Assembly (NCBI GenBank): GCA_027596075.1
Contig: JADGJC010000230.1
Coordinates: 1 to 64,000, forward strand
DNA: 64,000 nucleotides
From: Rhizophlyctis rosea
Taxonomy: Eukaryota; Chytridiomycota; Chytridiomycetes; Rhizophlyctidales; Rhizophlyctidaceae
Reading direction: 5' to 3'
In this document: piece by piece, positions 28,545 through 57,640 of the stretch
Numbering within the stretch: the stretch's first letter is position 1
Layout of the letters: each line of letters starts with the position of its first letter
Position numbers and translations under genes: made by a program
Notes under the pieces: generated by a model
Databases searched by the model: none
What the model saw: the letters and a program-made list of their open reading frames with translations, nothing else
What the model was told of the DNA's origin: nothing

Positions 28545-29852
28545 CTATCTCGTTATGGTTTCACCGCCCGTTTCTGTCCTATTCCGCACGGCATCCACAA
28601 CCATTCCAACCATCTTCAAGTTCTCACTCATCAAATATGCCCTCCTCCTCTGTACAGCTTCCTTCATCACCCTCCATCTCTCGGGTCCCATCTCCAAAAT
28701 TCTTGCAAATGTTTCCATATCAGTTTCCCCTGCCGCTTGCAGCCAAAACGCTTCACTATCTGAAACACCGCCCAAGTACGTGTACTTCTCCACAATCTCC
28801 CTAGACGCAATGACAGGTGTTCCCACCGTTATACTGGTAGCGATAGTGGAACTGGCCCGGTTTTGCAAATACCCACTGTGCGCAAATCCAGGAATCAATG
28901 CAATACATTCCGACAGTTTGCTCCAATATTCTGGAAAGCTTAGGTCGCGATATGACACGGCGAAGGGCTGGAGATCAGGGGGAAGACGGGCGGCTTGGCC
29001 TTGACCAAGAAGGAGGAGGGAGGCATTGTGTTTTTGGAAGTCGTATATGCGTTTACTCATGCTATCGAAGACTTTGGAATAATTTCGCCGATGGCTTTCA
29101 AAATTTCCTTGCATGGCAATGCAGGGACGCAGATTATCTGAAAGAGTCGTTTGGATGACGGGTGGGAATGCGGGGAGAACACGTACGGATGGTGTTTCGT
29201 AGGTAGGAGCGAAGGGATCATGTGGTGCCGGTGACATTTTCCAAGCTGTTACTTTGGATGCGACGTATTCGCGAACGTGTTCGGAAAGGGTGACGAAGTT
29301 GAAGCGGGAGGTTTGGATCCAAGGATGAGCTCTGTTCCTCCATTTCGAGTTCCCGGCCGCCCATTCGTTCGCTTGGTGCACAACGCAGAGAATCTCTCTG
29401 GGCGCATATGGGTTCGTCACGTTCACGAAGGCTTCCGGTAGCCACTCAAGATCTCTCGGGCATGTTACTAAAATTGCTAAGTCTGGCACGTATTCTAAGG
29501 TGGTAAGATCATTCACTGAGCGAATGTTGATAGGGTGGGGTGTCGGAACCTGCTGAATGAGGTCCCTCCCGCCAAAGCGTTTGGCCCCATTTGTTGCGAA
29601 AACCTCAACGATAACGTTTGGCTGGTTGCTGAAGGTGTGGAGAATTGGAAGGAGGACTTCAAAGTGGTACTCCGGGTAATTGATGAGAGAGACACGAAAT
29701 GGCTCAATCTTCTGACGCAGGAATGGTATTCGTATCAGCCGCCGAACAACAAGTCCCTCAGGAAAACCCAACAAAAGAATGACGTAGATCAAGATACAAC
29801 ACCAGGCAACAAGCCTAAGTCTGAGGGTTCTAGATAACCAAAAAACCGCCAT
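28545..29852 (-). CDS. Putative GT-B-like glycosyltransferase, type II membrane protein (paralogue 1)
   Basis: A single exon of 435 codons. Residues about 12-30 are a hydrophobic helix after a basic start, so a signal anchor is likely. The rest has the two-lobed alternation of strands and helices expected of a GT-B enzyme. The second lobe contains the most telling part, RASSTIATSITVGTPVIASREIVEKYTYLG, which resembles the donor-binding helix region of GT4-like enzymes. It is clearly homologous to the gene at 49952-51414: both share LEY(V/T)PDL, APREILCVVH..(N/D)EW, RFN(F/L)VT, IPGF and GTP(V/L)(I/V)A. Neither matches a named family that I can recall, so donor and acceptor are unknown. The other copy has one intron; this one has none. 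Confidence 0.65.
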   Translation of the reverse strand: MAVFWLSRTLRLRLVAWCCILIYVILLLGFPEGLVVRRLIRIPFLRQKIEPFRVSLINYPEYHFEVLLPILHTFSNQPNVIVEVFATNGAKRFGGRDLIQQVPTPHPINIRSVNDLTTLEYVPDLAILVTCPRDLEWLPEAFVNVTNPYAPREILCVVHQANEWAAGNSKWRNRAHPWIQTSRFNFVTLSEHVREYVASKVTAWKMSPAPHDPFAPTYETPSVRVLPAFPPVIQTTLSDNLRPCIAMQGNFESHRRNYSKVFDSMSKRIYDFQKHNASLLLLGQGQAARLPPDLQPFAVSYRDLSFPEYWSKLSECIALIPGFAHSGYLQNRASSTIATSITVGTPVIASREIVEKYTYLGGVSDSEAFWLQAAGETDMETFARILEMGPERWRVMKEAVQRRRAYLMSENLKMVGMVVDAVRNRTETGGETITR

Positions 29853-42169: not shown

Positions 42170-43687
42170 CTATATAACAACTTCTGCTTCCTGACCTCGC
42201 ATGGTTTTCTCCATCCACCTCTTCCAGTCCCTGAATTCTGTATCCTTCACAGTAGCATTTCCAAGCTCTACGGCTTTTGCAAAGAACGACCCATCCTTCC
42301 GACCTTTCGGTGGCTGCTCCCTTCTCAACGGCCATGACAGGTCCTGTGGGCGTTGCCAATCCCTAGTGTATTGACTACGAGGACGAGAGAACTTCACCAT
42401 GAAATCTTCCCAGGCTTGGGCTTTGTAATGTACGTGGTGAGCTTGTCCAACAGGGATTGTTACCGTGTTTCCGCGAGATGTCTGGAACCGATGGATATTG
42501 GTGGAGAGGCTTGCCACAGGGGTATGGACGATTGATTTGGGAATGGCGTGTTGATATGCTTGGGGCAGCGGGGAACGAAGGATGTATGTTTCGGGAAGGG
42601 TATAAGGCGCTTGCGGGCGGAGAACTAGATTTGATGACCCGAATACCTTGGGGACGATGAGGAGTGAGGTGATTGCTGGTGGGTGAGGGGACGAGAAATT
42701 GTATCCCGAATGAGCGGAGATGAGGTTGGGAAGGCAGTCTTTGAAGGAGGGAGTTTCGTCTGGAGTTTCGTCTGGACCCACGGCGATATTTGAGGGAATG
42801 CAGTCTGTGATGAATAGGTATTCGTCGACGTCTGGGAAGAATGTCCAATGGCAGAGTCGTTCTGCAAGTAGTCGGCCGTGGATGAAAGCATGTACTTGGG
42901 CCTTCCTCCATGGCCATCGAATGACAGTCGCCTGATGCATCAAGTCGCTACCTTGCATGAATTCGAGAAGGTTGTCGTCGCTGTCGTTGTCGTATATCAG
43001 GAAATGGTCTACACCGATTGCGGAGTGGTATGTCATCCAATCTTTCAAAATATGGGTTTTGTTATATATCTGAGTGACAATGCATATTCCGTATGGGAGC
43101 GTCCTGCTATCTGTTTCTTCGGGGGGCGCCATCGTGCGTGAGACTTCGAATCTAAACTGACTCTCGATAACCTTCAATCTGCGTCCTTCACGAGCCTGAA
43201 AGCTAAGAGCTACCACTTCCCCATCTAAATCGCAGATTTCAAAGTCGCCATCACCAAAGCCGGTGAGAAACAGACATTCCACCACTACCCAAGTCCGGTA
43301 CCTCCAAACTCTCTCCATACTTATTGGCAGCCGATGGCCCCCCACCGTGCAGCTGATCACATCCCAATCTTGTATTTCGCCTATTCCCTGCACAAATGCC
43401 ACCAACGATCGCGTGTCATGGAGGATACTCATGATTAAGGGTGTGGTAACATTACCCTGCCCCACATCTTCCTCGAGGGTAGGATATGCATGCTTAGCGA
43501 CTATTGCGGCGGCGGTGTGACTACGGCTAGGAGGCAAAAGCGTCGCCCGCAAAGACCAGTCGTCTGGATGGCGATAGACCCAAAACAGGATAAAAAGAAC
43601 GATAAGTGCCGTTACTTGCCGCCTCCAACTGTGACTGGTACAAGCAGTGGATGGCAGGACCCGTCGTTGTGTTACCGGCAAAAACAT
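42170..43687 (-). CDS. GT92-family glycosyltransferase (DUF23)
   Basis: A single exon. An upstream frame starts only at TTG, so the ATG at 43687 is chosen, giving 505 codons. Residues about 22-38 are a signal anchor (VTALIVLFILFWVY). The GT92 catalytic block is textbook: GICIVTQIYNKTHILKDWMTYHSAIGVDHFLIYDNDSDDN, then VIRWPWRKAQVHAF, then the metal-binding stretch WTFFPDVDEYLFI, where DVDE is the DxD-type motif, and HYKAQAWEDFMVKF near the end. Characterised GT92 members (nematode GALT-1, plant GALS1) transfer galactose; the donor here is not determined. The long plus-strand frames opposite it are shadows. Confidence 0.85.
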   Translation of the reverse strand: MFLPVTQRRVLPSTACTSHSWRRQVTALIVLFILFWVYRHPDDWSLRATLLPPSRSHTAAAIVAKHAYPTLEEDVGQGNVTTPLIMSILHDTRSLVAFVQGIGEIQDWDVISCTVGGHRLPISMERVWRYRTWVVVECLFLTGFGDGDFEICDLDGEVVALSFQAREGRRLKVIESQFRFEVSRTMAPPEETDSRTLPYGICIVTQIYNKTHILKDWMTYHSAIGVDHFLIYDNDSDDNLLEFMQGSDLMHQATVIRWPWRKAQVHAFIHGRLLAERLCHWTFFPDVDEYLFITDCIPSNIAVGPDETPDETPSFKDCLPNLISAHSGYNFSSPHPPAITSLLIVPKVFGSSNLVLRPQAPYTLPETYILRSPLPQAYQHAIPKSIVHTPVASLSTNIHRFQTSRGNTVTIPVGQAHHVHYKAQAWEDFMVKFSRPRSQYTRDWQRPQDLSWPLRREQPPKGRKDGSFFAKAVELGNATVKDTEFRDWKRWMEKTMRGQEAEVVI

Positions 43688-44097
43688 GATGACAGAAAGG
43701 ACGATCACATGGTGCGAAATGCTCAAGCAGCCTCGGCCTGTATATAAGACATTATCGGGGATCCATCTTTGCTCTTCTTGTCTGATTGAATGAATGGAGT
43801 GAATGGCGTCACCGATCCAAATTTAATGGCACTGAAAGGAGAAAGGTTCCAGGATCACACCGAGCATGTTGTTGACTAGATTGACTGCGGATTTCTCGAA
43901 ACAAGGAAGTTTGATGATTTCAAACTTTCCGGTGTGTGCGGACAACGTCCAGCCTCCGAAAAACTTCCGAAATCGTAAATTTATGAAAGCTTGTTAACAT
44001 CATGTGGCGACCCAAGAGCCCCCAGGGTCCAACTGAGGTAAGCAGGAATATGACATATCGTTCCACCGACAACTCACTAAAAATCCCCTATCTGACC
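43688..44097. other. Intergenic region between GT92 and SNF2 genes
   Basis: Tandem minus-strand genes flank it. It holds the GT92 promoter and the SNF2 3' flank; no coding sequence recognised. Confidence 0.3.
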
Positions 44098-49951: not shown

Positions 49952-51414
49952 ATGAGACGATGGTGCTATGTGAGGTCTCGAAGAGTGTGGGGTCAGATCG
50001 CGCTTTTGCAGCTTGCGATATTTATAGTTTATCAGCTTCACCACACGTCATGGACAAACTCCAACCAGGCGATGATTCTCGGCAATGCTCGCCGCCAACT
50101 GCGAATTGCCATCGTTCACCGTCGTGACACCATCCCGTAAGTCCAAGATTTGATATTGGAGAAAAGATGCATGTGCTAACGCAAAGATGTCGAATCAGGC
50201 CCGTGCACTTTGAACCTGCTCTTCCGTTCATCCACACATATAGCCGCCAACCTAACAGCCATGTCGACGTTTTCCTCGCTGGCCAATATGCAACTTCAGC
50301 CGCCATCAACACGAACGCCCAACCGGGAATCAGTGCAACTTTCCGCAACCGTGATGTGGACGACTTGCTAGACTTAGAATACACACCTGACTTGTTGATC
50401 TTAACGACATGCCATGACGAGCTGCCTATTCTGCCAAAAAGAATGACGAATGTCACACATCCTGCAGCGCCAAGAGAAATCTTATGCGTTGTTCATGGGA
50501 CAGACGAATGGGACCGACAAAGGGAGAGTGTGTGGGCTATCGTGAATACGTGGGTGAACGCCGCCCGGTTCAATCTTGTCACCACGTCAGATCATGTTAC
50601 GGATGCGATGCTCTACAAAGTATCAGAATGGGGTCTTCCATCCCCTGGCAACGCCCTCTTGAGAACATACCCGTGCGACACCCGCCATATCCGACTCCTC
50701 CCCACCTTCCCTACAATATATCCTGCACTCTCGAGCACACGGACACTGTCCTCGACCACTCAGAAATCTCTCTACGCTACTATACCAGGGCATCTTCCTG
50801 GCCGACACTCCTACCACCAAATTTTCCAAACCCTATCGCAACACACTCAAACTCTGGCCCATCACAACGTTTCCATGCGTCTCATAGAATCTGCACAAGC
50901 AATACAGACCCCGCCAAAAGATTACAAAATACCAAAGGATCTGGACCCATTCATCTCCATTCACCAAAATCTGAGTTCGGCGGACTACTGGCAGATGCTC
51001 GCAGACAGTGTAGCTATCATCCCAGGCTTCAATACCCGCGCGCCACACTTTACGGAACGGTCCAGTGCCACGATTGCTGCCGCACTGATTGCTGGAACGC
51101 CCTTGGTCGCCAAGCGATCATATCTCAAAAAATATCGATATTTAGGTAGTTCCCGTTTGGATGGAGGCATGAAGGAAGGTGGACCGCTCATCATTCAGCG
51201 ATTTGGAGAAGAGGAGGTAGAAGCCTTCATGAGATATCTAGAAATGGGGCCGGCAGTGTGGGAGGATCATAAGAGGGCCATTGAGGTTAGGAGGAAGGAA
51301 GTTGTGGAGGACAATTTCTGGAATGTTGAGGTATTCTTGGAAGCGCTCAGGGAAAGGATCGAGTGGGGAATGAGGAATGGCGTTTATGAGTCTTCAGGTT
51401 GCCATGGAGAATAG
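49952..51414 (+). CDS. Putative GT-B-like glycosyltransferase, type II membrane protein (paralogue 2)
   Basis: Exons 49952-50136 and 50199-51414 (62-nt intron, GTAAGT..CAG) give 466 residues. The N-terminus is MRRWCYVRSRR followed by a hydrophobic helix (VWGQIALLQLAIFIVYQL), a type II anchor. The catalytic part is homologous along its length to the gene at 28545-29852: LEYTPDLLILTTC, APREILCVVHGTDEW, RFNLVTTSDHV, LLPTFP, DYWQMLADSVAIIPGF, SSATIAAALIAGTPLVAK and KKYRYLG. The conserved glycine/threonine-rich helix near residue 375 probably binds the donor. Function is inferred from fold pattern only. The two paralogues lie on opposite strands about 20 kb apart. Confidence 0.65.
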
Positions 51415-53696: not shown

Positions 53697-55349
53697 GGAG
53701 GTTGACTATTTTGAGTTGTGATAGTGATGGTTCAAGACGGACCGAACTTCAACTTTTCGAACTCCCGTGCTTCGCGTGGGCGCCCTGCTGATTCAGCACT
53801 TTTGGGGACACAGAACCTTGGTACCTACCGTAAAAGCTGTGTGGCTTGTCCACTCTTTGAGGGTCTATATCTCACTAATGCATTGGTGCTTGGGAATTTG
53901 TGGGGAACTGTACTGATGAAGAGTGATCGCTTCATGATTCGCAAGCCGCATAAACTATACTAGATCTTATCAGGGAAACCATAAACGGCAATCGAAATTC
54001 AACCGTGAATCACATCACCGATTTATACCAGTCTGACATCAACACTCAACCAAGGTTGTTGAGATACCAGTCTCTTGAACGACTGGGCAAATCTGCTTTG
54101 GGAAGGAAGGCAAAAGGTGTCTCTCGGTCACTAAGTTCAAAATTGCTGCGTTCGTTGGCTCCCTAGGATGGCGGGCAAGATCAGAGATTCTTCGAGAGGA
54201 GCGGGTAGCAGGAAGCAAAAATCAAAGCTGCAACGTGTGAGCTGGGAGAAGACTGAAAAGTCTAAAATGATTGCAGTGGCGAATTGGTGATGAATGAATT
54301 GAGATCGGAAGTCAGCCAAAAGTAACGCTGTTCCCTCCATGGAAAAAAGGCTCTCACTGATCTTTTCCATAAGTTTCCAGAGAAGTGCCCCTCCCGAGAA
54401 AAGTAACGCAGCCGGAAATCCTACAATTCTCGGGTATGAATAAAGATGGTGCAGTAATAGTAGCGCCAACACTTGAAGAGTGTGAATGCGATGACCGTGG
54501 AAGGTACACAGGTTAGAACATGCGTGGACCCGATCAATGAGTTCAAACATTTGTCTATCGGCCATCTTTCTAGTCGGGCTACCATGCCACAACCACTTAG
54601 CGACACCCCGTCCTCCCAAAAGAAGTTAAAAGAACGCGTGGGTGGGGAACATATGCTATTGTAATGCCAAGCCTATATTGCGCTCACGTCTTGAAGAGCA
54701 AAAGAAACTACCCGGGGCAGATTCTCGAACCTGGAGCCATTAAGGAGATCGTTCGCCGTATTGGCAAAGAAGGGGCACGTCTTCGGGATTGCTGGATTGG
54801 AGGGTCTATGATATCCTAAGTCTCGCCCAGAGGGAACCATTTAGACATCGCCCCGCTCAGCGCTTGGAACCTGCCGCACATTGGAAAGTCAGTGCTCATT
54901 TGTTGGACGAATTCCTATTTATGCGTAAATGTGTGTTTGGGGCGGGAAAGGCTGCGCTGGCCAAAGGGTGAATTCCTTTTTTCTACTTATATGCATCCAT
55001 CGCTTTTTACATTTTTAGTACTTGCATTTGTGTACTTCCCTCCCGGCTCCACTTACTATAGACTTGAAACCCTTTAGGCGCGGGCGCTTTTTGTTTGCGA
55101 AGTTTGAGATCAAAACAAAGAAAATATGCACTATGAATTACATAGAGAACGAAATTGCACAACTATGCTTCCGCAGGCAAGATGACCCGATGAACCTTGA
55201 TATTCATAATGTGTAGAAGCAGGACCCCCTCCTTTCCTCACGATCGCATCATATTTAAGCTTACAACTAATACAGCCAGCGCCAAATCCCAGATCTGGAT
55301 ATGTGAGCTCCATGTGTCACTTGCTTATTCTCCTTCTCTCGGTAGAACT
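53697..55349. other. Long region without a supported gene
   Basis: About 1.65 kb. A 160-codon minus frame (54137-54619) with several hydrophobic stretches is the longest open frame but shows no family pattern or splice context, so I do not call it. Plus-strand fragments at 54660-54960 are short and broken. The stretch holds the GT69 promoter at its left end and the 3' flank of the fusion gene at its right end. Confidence 0.35.
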
Positions 55350-57640
55350 TCACATCTCGTGGCGGTGGAGGTTCCGAAGTTTTGGAATATACCAATCCAT
55401 ATGCCTTACCGCCAAAGGTGGGAGCATCCTAACTGTAGGCCCCTTCAACCTCCCCATCTGCGTCCCTTTCCGATACATGGCAAAAGTGGTGTCGATAGGA
55501 GCCTCGTTGTAGTAATAGCATCGGTCATTGCGAAGGAAGCATTTGGCTTCCTTGTTGATAAAGGCCGCTTCGTGAACATAGGATTCAAACACCTCCGGGT
55601 TCCAGTCGTCCCAACGAAGCGCGGCCGCGACGTTGTATAGGGATGGCATGTGATCGAGGAGCGCACTGTACACTTCGAGAATATTGTGAGGTGCGGAGTC
55701 CAGCGGATTGTCCGCATCTGTCATGATATAGTAGTTTCCCGTGGCGTTAGTCATATAATTGGCAATGATTTCTGCCCAGATGCTGTACAAGTCGTTGAAG
55801 TGGCCCCATTCGTGAGTTGAATGATAGACGGTAATATCAGAGTTAGAGAGGCGGGAGAGGAAGTTTGCAGCTTGCGGGTAGGTGGAGTTGTCGTCTAGGA
55901 TAACGATCTCAAATGGGGTGCGGATGTAGCGATGGTAGGAGCGGATTGATTCCATCAGTTGGGAGATACGATCTTTGAACATGATGAAGATGATAACGCT
56001 AAATTATAGAATCAAAATGAATTATAGGCTGTAACCGTCTTCGTGCAAAACAGAATTGCTCTCACTGCTTACGGAGGAGTTCCGTCGTCAAACGTCACGC
56101 CTTTCACTGTGTGACTTCCATTCGCAGGTTGCCAAACCTTGGTGAGCGGCTCAGAAACTCTGTATGCCAGTATGCAATTCAAATCCTCGAATTGCAGCGG
56201 GCCAGGCTGATCAAAGTTGCACCGATCTATATCAGCATAGTGCGATGGGTCAAGAAGGCTGCCCGTTGTCAACTTTGTCACCTCTGGGGTGACCGTCCGG
56301 ACCGGGTAAAATGCGGAGGTGAGGGTTGCTAAAAGTGTAGCAACGAGTAGACATTGTGTGCAAGTTATCTCTGGAAGCCATTTCGAGCCCGAGGTTGTTC
56401 GGAAGGTCTCCTTTGACCAAAGCGGCAACGTGGGTGTATAATTATCTGGTAAGTTGTACAGTGCGGTGGCTCCAGAGACCAGCACGATGCCTAAATCAAG
56501 CCGGAGAAGATTTGTGTGTAAGTCGTTTTTAAAAAATTGCATGCCTTTCCGAACTTCATCCAACTTACCTCCCAAAATTTGCAAACTCCATCCAAGTTCG
56601 CCGATTGATATGCTAAATACCGCCCCCAGAACGACCGCAAAGCAGGCTGCAAAATTCTTTTGAATCATTCCAACATACTTCACAACGGCCGCTACGAGCA
56701 ATCCACTCGCCGCCCAGCATATGATTGCCAACCACGTCCATATTGTGTAACCACGGAACAGCTGCCCTAGTGGAATTTTGATTCCATCCCCAAGCATAGC
56801 GAGCATTGCAAACCCCGCAGAGTAGGTCCCAAGATGGACGTTGCGTAGCCAAAGGGATATGGATTCATCCTTGAGAAGCTTCTCAACGTAGACGCCAGCG
56901 AACCCACTGATCACTGCAGCTCCAATTCCAGCGAGGATTCCTATGTAAACTACCGCTATCCCATCGGATTTTTCTGCACCGGGTGGAGCAATTCCGGGTT
57001 GGACGAGTAGAACTCCTGCCAAAAGGATGAAGAGGGCGATCCATTTGCGGATGGAGATGGAACGACTGAGGATTATCACGGAGAATATGGCGGTGGTGAT
57101 GATTTTCAGTTGGTTTAGCATCTAATACTGTACTGCAGCAAGGCTGTATGCACCGATTCATATCATGATGATTCGCAAGGTAGGTAAAATAATGTAAAAA
57201 TTTGTGAGAGATGATATGGTTAGAAAAACGAATGAATGAGACATATCGCAACATAGTCAAAGCTGCATGGAAAATGACAATTTCCAACATGGCTTCAGAG
57301 CAGTCCATACTCACTAGGAAAGACTCACGAAAGCAAGCCAGTTCTGCACCAGATACATCCCAGCTGGCAAAGCGGACGTCTTATGATTCATGCATTTAAA
57401 GGCGTCTAGAAAGTTGGCTTTCAAGGAGGACGAGCCGCGCTCCTGGTACAGGTGCACGGCTAAGGCACAGAGTGTTTTGAGGCATTCTGTCAGGAATAGC
57501 GCGGTGGAAACGAGATAAAGAGGCCCGCCATTGGTGGTGGTACGTGATAGCCGACTAATGGGAGCAGTGAGGGAAGAAATCACAATGAGAAGAATGAAGG
57601 GAAGTACTTTGGTTTTTGTAGATTGGGCGGTAACGGTCAT
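55350..57640 (-). CDS. Nucleotide-sugar transporter fused to a DxD glycosyltransferase
   Basis: Exons 57640-57315, 57143-56569, 56490-56073 and 55998-55350 keep one frame (656 codons with stop). Residues 1 to ~325 are an SLC35A-type UDP-sugar/CMP-sialic-acid transporter: VLPFILLIVISSLTAPISR, FLTECLKTLCAL, YLVQNWLAFVSLS, LNQLKIITTAIFSVIILSRSIS, SGFAGVYVEKLLK and SLQILGGGIVLVSGATALY (restored over a 78-nt intron). Next come a short polar loop, one extra helix (~347-362, CLLVATLLATLTSAFY), a linker, and from ~440 a GT-A domain: PVIIFIMFKDRISQLMESI, FEIVILDDNST, YIMTDADNP (DxD) and a C-terminal RHMDWY. Transporters of this fold end on the cytosolic side, so the extra helix would put the GT domain in the Golgi lumen. 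Codon 57124-57122 is TAG in place of a conserved Gln. An upstream in-frame ATG at 57736 is possible. Confidence 0.72.

Follow-up and report, generated by a model that had tools for sequence, protein, structure and literature searches.

Proteins in which a membrane transport module and a glycosyltransferase share one chain are known from prokaryotes, where a small GtrA-type transport or flippase-like module is joined to a GT2 enzyme; these fusions differ from the protein considered here by their lipid-linked sugar pathway and by another transporter family. In eukaryotes SLC35A2, SLC35A3 and SLC35A4 are reported to assemble physically with MGAT enzymes (PMC6453868). SLC35 transporters are described as having both ends in the cytosol (PMC8411240), and Golgi transferases as usually being type II proteins with membrane helix, stem and lumenal domain in this order (PMC9368800).

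The locus characterized here lies at positions 55350-57640 on the minus strand of the window, that is, the whole stretch of 64,000 nucleotides of DNA from the chytrid Rhizophlyctis rosea (Chytridiomycota, Rhizophlyctidales) that was analysed. Like the assemblies of nucleotide-sugar transporters (NSTs) with transferases in PMC6453868 it places a transporter beside a transferase that would use its cargo; the partners are separate proteins in that report, whereas here they form one chain. Like the type II Golgi transferases of PMC9368800 it keeps the order of helix, stem and catalytic domain, but a whole ten-helix transporter stands where those enzymes have a short cytosolic tail. The open-licence PMC literature, judged largely by titles and abstracts, yielded no description of a natural fusion of transporter and transferase, and to this extent the statement of the original prediction that no described protein of this architecture is known still stands; the architecture itself, however, recurs in metagenome proteins and in the same genome. 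The component families are known; new are the way they are arranged, the repeated occurrence of this arrangement and the fact that the transferases joined to the transporters are unrelated.

The gene model has four exons, and all three introns are of the GT...AG type. From the start codon at 57640, exon 1 (57315..57640) encodes the N-terminal part of an SLC35A-type transporter with TM1-TM3 (PF04142, E 1.3e-10) and is followed by intron 1 (57144..57314, 171 nt, GTGAGT...ACAG), after which exon 2 (56569..57143) encodes the end of TM3, TM4-TM9 and the start of TM10. Intron 2 (56491..56568, 78 nt) has no in-frame stop and a length divisible by three, so that its retention would insert 26 in-frame residues. 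Exon 3 (56073..56490) encodes TM10, a linker predicted to be cytosolic, TM11, the stem and the beginning of the transferase region, and intron 3 (55999..56072, 74 nt) separates it from exon 4 (55350..55998), which carries a GT2-like (predicted GT-A) glycosyltransferase domain. The last coding base is 55350 and the coding length is 1968 nt, a multiple of 3; the intron lengths, the in-phase joins and the whole number of codons noted earlier were thus confirmed. The assignment of an SLC35A-type transporter, an extra helix and a DxD transferase agrees with the Pfam matches (Nuc_sug_transp in exon 1 and, with E 1.2e-42, in the ORF spanning exons 2-3; Glycos_transf_2 in exon 4 with E 1e-5 and 26 bits against a cut-off of 23.3), with hydropathy and with the sister fusions described below. 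The statement that all parts lie in one reading frame survives in part: the frame is open from TM4 to the transferase, but model codon 116, inside exon 2, is an in-frame TAG (57122..57124) that the original prediction did not report.

When the second half of the model protein was used as a query against protein sequences, the NCBI entry HDV00_004736 (here P0001), a hypothetical protein of R. rosea, was recovered; it is identical to residues 117-655 of the window translation minus 25 residues. It represents the same locus and hence is no independent evidence for the fusion. In the NCBI model translation begins at the Met that directly follows the TAG, and residues 371-395 are treated as an intron. 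This stretch of the stem (56207..56281, coordinates computed by hand), which ends in CNFDQ, holds a C-x-F motif that is kept in standalone relatives of the transferase, and exon 3 of the earlier model is therefore better than the NCBI version.

The transporter half (residues 19-320) aligns with residues 22-321 of the mouse CMP-sialic acid transporter (mCST; PDB 6OH2/6OH4) with E 5e-38. Pocket positions of SLC35A1 and SLC35A2 for scoring were taken from PMC8411240, and all nine tested residues are kept: the counterparts of mCST E52, K55, Q101 and N102 in exon 1, which precedes the TAG, and those of K124, T128, S188, N210 and K272 in exon 2. The residue matching mCST 214 is Gly, as is reported for SLC35A2 and SLC35A3 (PMC6508934), which may be taken as a weak hint of a UDP-sugar donor; since most rows of the alignment have Gly, Ser, Ala or Cys at this place, the position says little about the donor. 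The window protein differs from SLC35A transporters, including SLC35A2 and SLC35A3, by the C-terminal extra helix and transferase, by the loss of the D-N of the usual KY-x-D-N stretch, which here reads KYVGM, and by the TAG at the start of TM4 (57124-57122), which interrupts the coding frame of the transporter.

The transferase domain is 44-48% identical to six standalone relatives, P0002 from Thoreauomyces and P0003-P0007, and shares with them the motifs DxD, WDD, DTTFAMY and RHxD; both Asp of the DxD motif (D-A-D, 55710..55718, computed by hand) are invariant in all seven aligned sequences. The relatives, which score below the PF00535 cut-off that the window domain exceeds, are independent proteins, each with a start, a helix and a stem of its own, whereas in the window gene the helix comes after the transporter and the frame of the C-terminal tail is not that of the domain. 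Of the 69 columns invariant among the six relatives, the window transferase departs at 11. The corresponding counts are 13/71 for P0002, 6/64 for P0003 and 2/60, 1/59, 1/59 and 2/60 for P0004-P0007, the last four being close to one another. By this measure the window transferase is no worse constrained than the standalone protein of Thoreauomyces, and the five other relatives have fewer departures (1 to 6). The predicted structure of the transferase is a weak model (mean pLDDT 60), whose best PDB matches are mostly GT-A enzymes, with SpsA first (E 4e-6) at a TM score of only 0.34. A sequence search of solved structures gave SpsA at an E of 0.84, which is not useful, and a second such search gave no match. 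The family of this transferase was also confirmed in 62 of 149 candidate stretches from bacterial genomes (L047-L108) and in 25 of 60 candidates on viral contigs (L022-L046).

Other candidate glycosyltransferase genes occur in the same 64 kb. A 518-aa ORF at 42170-43726 on the minus strand matches Glyco_transf_92 (1.4e-15) and Glyco_tranf_2_4. Two further ORFs, of 435 aa (28545-29852, minus strand) and 415 aa (50167-51414, plus strand), are similar to each other by eye and share the stretch APREILCVVH; neither matched a Pfam family at E 0.01, and they are perhaps unnamed glycosyltransferases.

A search of the whole R. rosea genome with PF04142 gave 11 matches at 7 places, five of them above the family cut-off, and three of these five loci encode a transporter, an extra helix and a glycosyltransferase, with a different transferase family in each. 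The second fusion, on contig C61 (25137-27485, minus strand), is an intronless 782-aa ORF with PF04142 (2e-9), a helix at residues 348-366 and then a PF04488 DXD glycosyltransferase domain (4.2e-8; also PF05704, 1.2e-5). The third, on C276 (40010-37387, minus strand), was modelled in this analysis with six exons and combines PF04142 (1.3e-37, covering profile positions 12-314 of 315), a helix at residues 347-365 and PF03407 (4.5e-21). A hydropathy scan found 8 segments in the C61 protein and 10 in the C276 protein; since only 9 were found even in a standard NST, the scan undercounts helices. The tested pocket residues are kept at 5 of 9 positions in C276 (the losses being K55R, Q101A, N102H and K124E) and at only 2 of 9, E52 and S188, in C61, divergence making the alignment less sure in both. 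The two remaining loci look ordinary: one is a 438-aa gene at 10.8 kb of C276 and the other, near the end of contig C330, was judged from the ORF list only. Two further candidates, C112 (TPT, 578 aa) and C511 (a 566-aa frame with PF04488), were judged from their translations to be no fusions.

The joining of the two halves might be an artefact, in which a broken transporter gene and a neighbouring, separate transferase gene were wrongly taken as one. The six relatives found beside P0001 are standalone, and annotated chytrid models join transporters to unrelated domains (Mo25 in P0027 and P0028, aminotransferase/MOSC in P0030), perhaps by mistaken joining in some cases. The genomic frame at 57121-56069, however, is open from TM4 through TM10, linker, TM11 and stem, even with intron 2 unspliced. 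Exon 3 has no in-frame Met codon, and in the model protein Met is absent from the stretch between residues 268 and 446. No start of its own is therefore available to the transferase helix at residues 342-360, and, the frame being open between TM4 and the stem, the locus does not encode a membrane-anchored transferase as a protein apart. The same design is found as one uninterrupted ORF on C61, and the C276 exon that carries the transferase helix is preceded in frame by a TAA without an ATG, its first Met coming after the helix. With these data two misjoined genes are most unlikely, and a true junction is the reading followed here: at the window locus a single frame runs from TM4 into the transferase and is broken upstream by the TAG, and in the C61 ORF it is unbroken.

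The TAG stands at the start of TM4, aligned with mCST Q118, in a column that has Gln in 17 of 30 rows (the window row included) and Ala in 5. The GT...AG joins around it were weighed by reading the sequence, and those that preserve the homologous residues all retain the TAG; no splice choice was found by eye that both avoids it and keeps these residues. The single in-phase bypass found, from a donor at 57328 to an acceptor ending at 57122, would join exon 1 to M117, and both of its sites, as read by eye, fit GT...AG. It loses 12 codons, which cover the end of TM3 and the start of TM4 including the column of mCST Y117, and the NCBI model does not take that route; removal of the TAG by splicing is accordingly regarded as very unlikely. 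Still less credit is due to the reading of UAG as glutamine, or its readthrough, in the R. rosea genome, by which the frame would be truly open. The frequent Gln in this column suits it, but among 41 HSP70 matches TAG occurred in four, presumed to be read-through introns, and in none of the six best exon matches, on which ground glutamine decoding was rejected; a recoded UAG would moreover leave the second defect of the gene unexplained.

This second defect concerns the C-terminus. The transferase frame stops at 55350, and the tail common to the six relatives goes on downstream in a different frame (55267..55365, minus strand, computed by hand). The shifted frame scored 233 against the tails of the relatives, a value that none of 1000 shuffles reached, whereas for the four pieces of the two remaining frames 354 to 957 of 1000 shuffles scored as well. 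With an in-frame TAG and a conserved tail in another frame, the full protein is not producible from this copy by standard decoding, and a working import-and-transfer machine of the proposed kind finds no support in this copy.

Both defects could be errors of sequencing or assembly in a window gene that is intact and expressed. There are just two of them within 1968 nt, the pocket and the transferase still appear constrained, and a one-base frame change is a common kind of sequencing error. Indel errors, on the other hand, do not typically turn a codon into TAG. Among the six best exon matches of HSP70 five are free of stops and one has two TGA and no TAG, and long frames elsewhere in the same assembly are unbroken (the 782-aa fusion ORF, the 438-aa standard NST and the 518-aa GT92 ORF). 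At the places inspected, the HSP70 exons and these three long ORFs, the assembly is otherwise sound and uses the standard code. Error is therefore considered unlikely, though it deserves some weight, and a null or dying gene is likelier: the window copy most likely represents either a gene that has recently been inactivated or a null allele. The inactivation, if real, would be recent, because all nine pocket residues are kept and the transferase has no larger share of departures than the Thoreauomyces relative. A genome search found no second, undamaged copy or haplotype of the locus in the assembly, the sole other match of the transferase part being one of E 0.065 on C247.

The fusion would have been refuted, according to the original prediction, by its absence from other genomes, and in this respect the result is divided: the exact pairing was found only here, but the architecture recurs. 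Among the seven proteins found in the search for the exact pairing, which covered 2453 candidates with lengths of 0.55-1.75 times 655 aa, P0001 from the same locus was the sole fusion. Broader searches scored the best 7999 and 8000 candidates by shared words, so that the fusions found are a lower bound. Of the 46 proteins from the search with 8000 candidates 21, P0010 among them, were scanned with Pfam, and the other 25, including P0001, were judged by a precomputed Pfam column, in which no glycosyltransferase family appeared. The metagenomic protein P0062 (794 aa, on a 3369-base contig) has PF04142 at residues 9-304, a helix at 317-335 and a PF04577 glycosyltransferase 61 domain (9.7e-11). 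In P0013, also metagenomic (675 aa, on a 2962-base contig), PF04142 (2-316) and a helix are followed by a tail without a Pfam match, a putative transferase by its DVD motif; in its predicted structure the bundle of ten helices is resolved (pLDDT mostly 80-95 up to residue 318) and the tail is not, and P0017, a relative with 56% identity, is a transporter without additions. The Gonapodya protein P0010 (811 aa) shows the same domain order with a tail that matches no family, and may be a joined model, as a Met-containing stretch before the helix could start a separate gene. These three proteins, known from protein sequences alone, keep 9/9 (P0013 and P0062) and 8/9 (P0010) of the pocket residues. 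No relative of P0013 or P0062 came up in scans of viral sequences. A tree of 29 transporter rows requires 5 changes for its six fusion rows, five of which stand on long branches, and by this tree a single origin of all fusions appears neither supported nor contradicted.

Several other composite proteins were set aside. P0025, from a Lobulomycetales MAG, carries a PF11051 mannosyltransferase domain (GT71) ahead of the transporter on one chain, that is, in the opposite order, and may represent joined neighbours. P0026 and P0055 have no second kind of Pfam family, and P0023 (Actinia tenebrosa) and P0024 (Aphelenchoides besseyi) have two tandem transporter domains on one chain; none of these was counted. 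The unrelated domains of P0027, P0028 and P0030 were not taken as support either. The combination with Mo25 in both P0027 (Synchytrium endobioticum) and P0028 (S. microbalum) is a shared fusion or a joining error made twice.

The hydropathy scan of the window protein gives 11 membrane-like segments, of which ten precede the linker; the eleventh comprises residues 342-360 (56312..56368, computed by hand from exon lengths; hydropathy 1.59). With the cytosolic ends of SLC35 transporters and the type II layout of Golgi transferases, a helix after the tenth would send the transferase to the lumen. The numbers of K/R in the 15 residues before and after this helix are 3/2 in the window gene, 3/0 in P0010, 3/2 in P0013 and 4/0 in C61, an excess that fits a lumenal transferase in these four, and they are even in P0062 (2/2) and C276 (3/3).

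Taken together, the best explanation, which we regard as probable, is that the window gene descends from a real single-chain transporter-helix-transferase gene whose present copy is inactivated or null. The ancestral chain would have begun with an SLC35A transporter of UDP-sugar type, with ten helices and cytosolic ends, followed by an eleventh helix carrying the stem and the GT2-like DxD transferase into the Golgi/ER lumen. Intact, it would have imported a nucleotide sugar and released the donor beside its own transferase, which would have handed the sugar to a glycan, the nucleotide being exported again. Coupled import and transfer, with a kinetic link between the two steps, is plausible from the architecture alone. 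More tentatively, and with rather less than even confidence, it may be proposed that in chytrids and other microbial eukaryotes transporters have repeatedly been joined N-terminally to unrelated Golgi transferases via an eleventh helix, forming a class of one-chain import-and-transfer proteins with three members in R. rosea, one per transferase family.

A different role is a serious alternative, if a less likely one: the transporter fold could be a Golgi anchor, a retention device or a complex-forming module for which donor transport is not required. The poor conservation of the pocket in C276 and C61, two of the three R. rosea fusion transporters, suggests that transport is perhaps not the purpose of the fusions, and both may serve as anchors or transport another cargo; the long branches of five of the six fusion transporters and the known assembly of NSTs with transferases, as reported in PMC6453868, point in the same direction. 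The pocket is nevertheless complete in the window gene, P0013 and P0062 and nearly so in P0010, and a single helix, which the standalone relatives already have, would be enough for an anchor.

The significance of such fusions lies in the dispute whether Golgi transporters feed particular transferases or a common lumenal pool, which so far has been argued from interactions of separate proteins. A natural fusion fixes one transporter-one transferase partnership genetically and makes specificity, coupling and topology testable on one chain, and at least one unbroken sister gene in the same genome, with a different enzyme, allows direct coupling of import and transfer to be tested. In the partly eroded transporters of C276 and C61 one would see the other outcome, conversion of a transporter into an anchor. 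That a single genome repeats the arrangement with several transferases would point to selection for the pairing.
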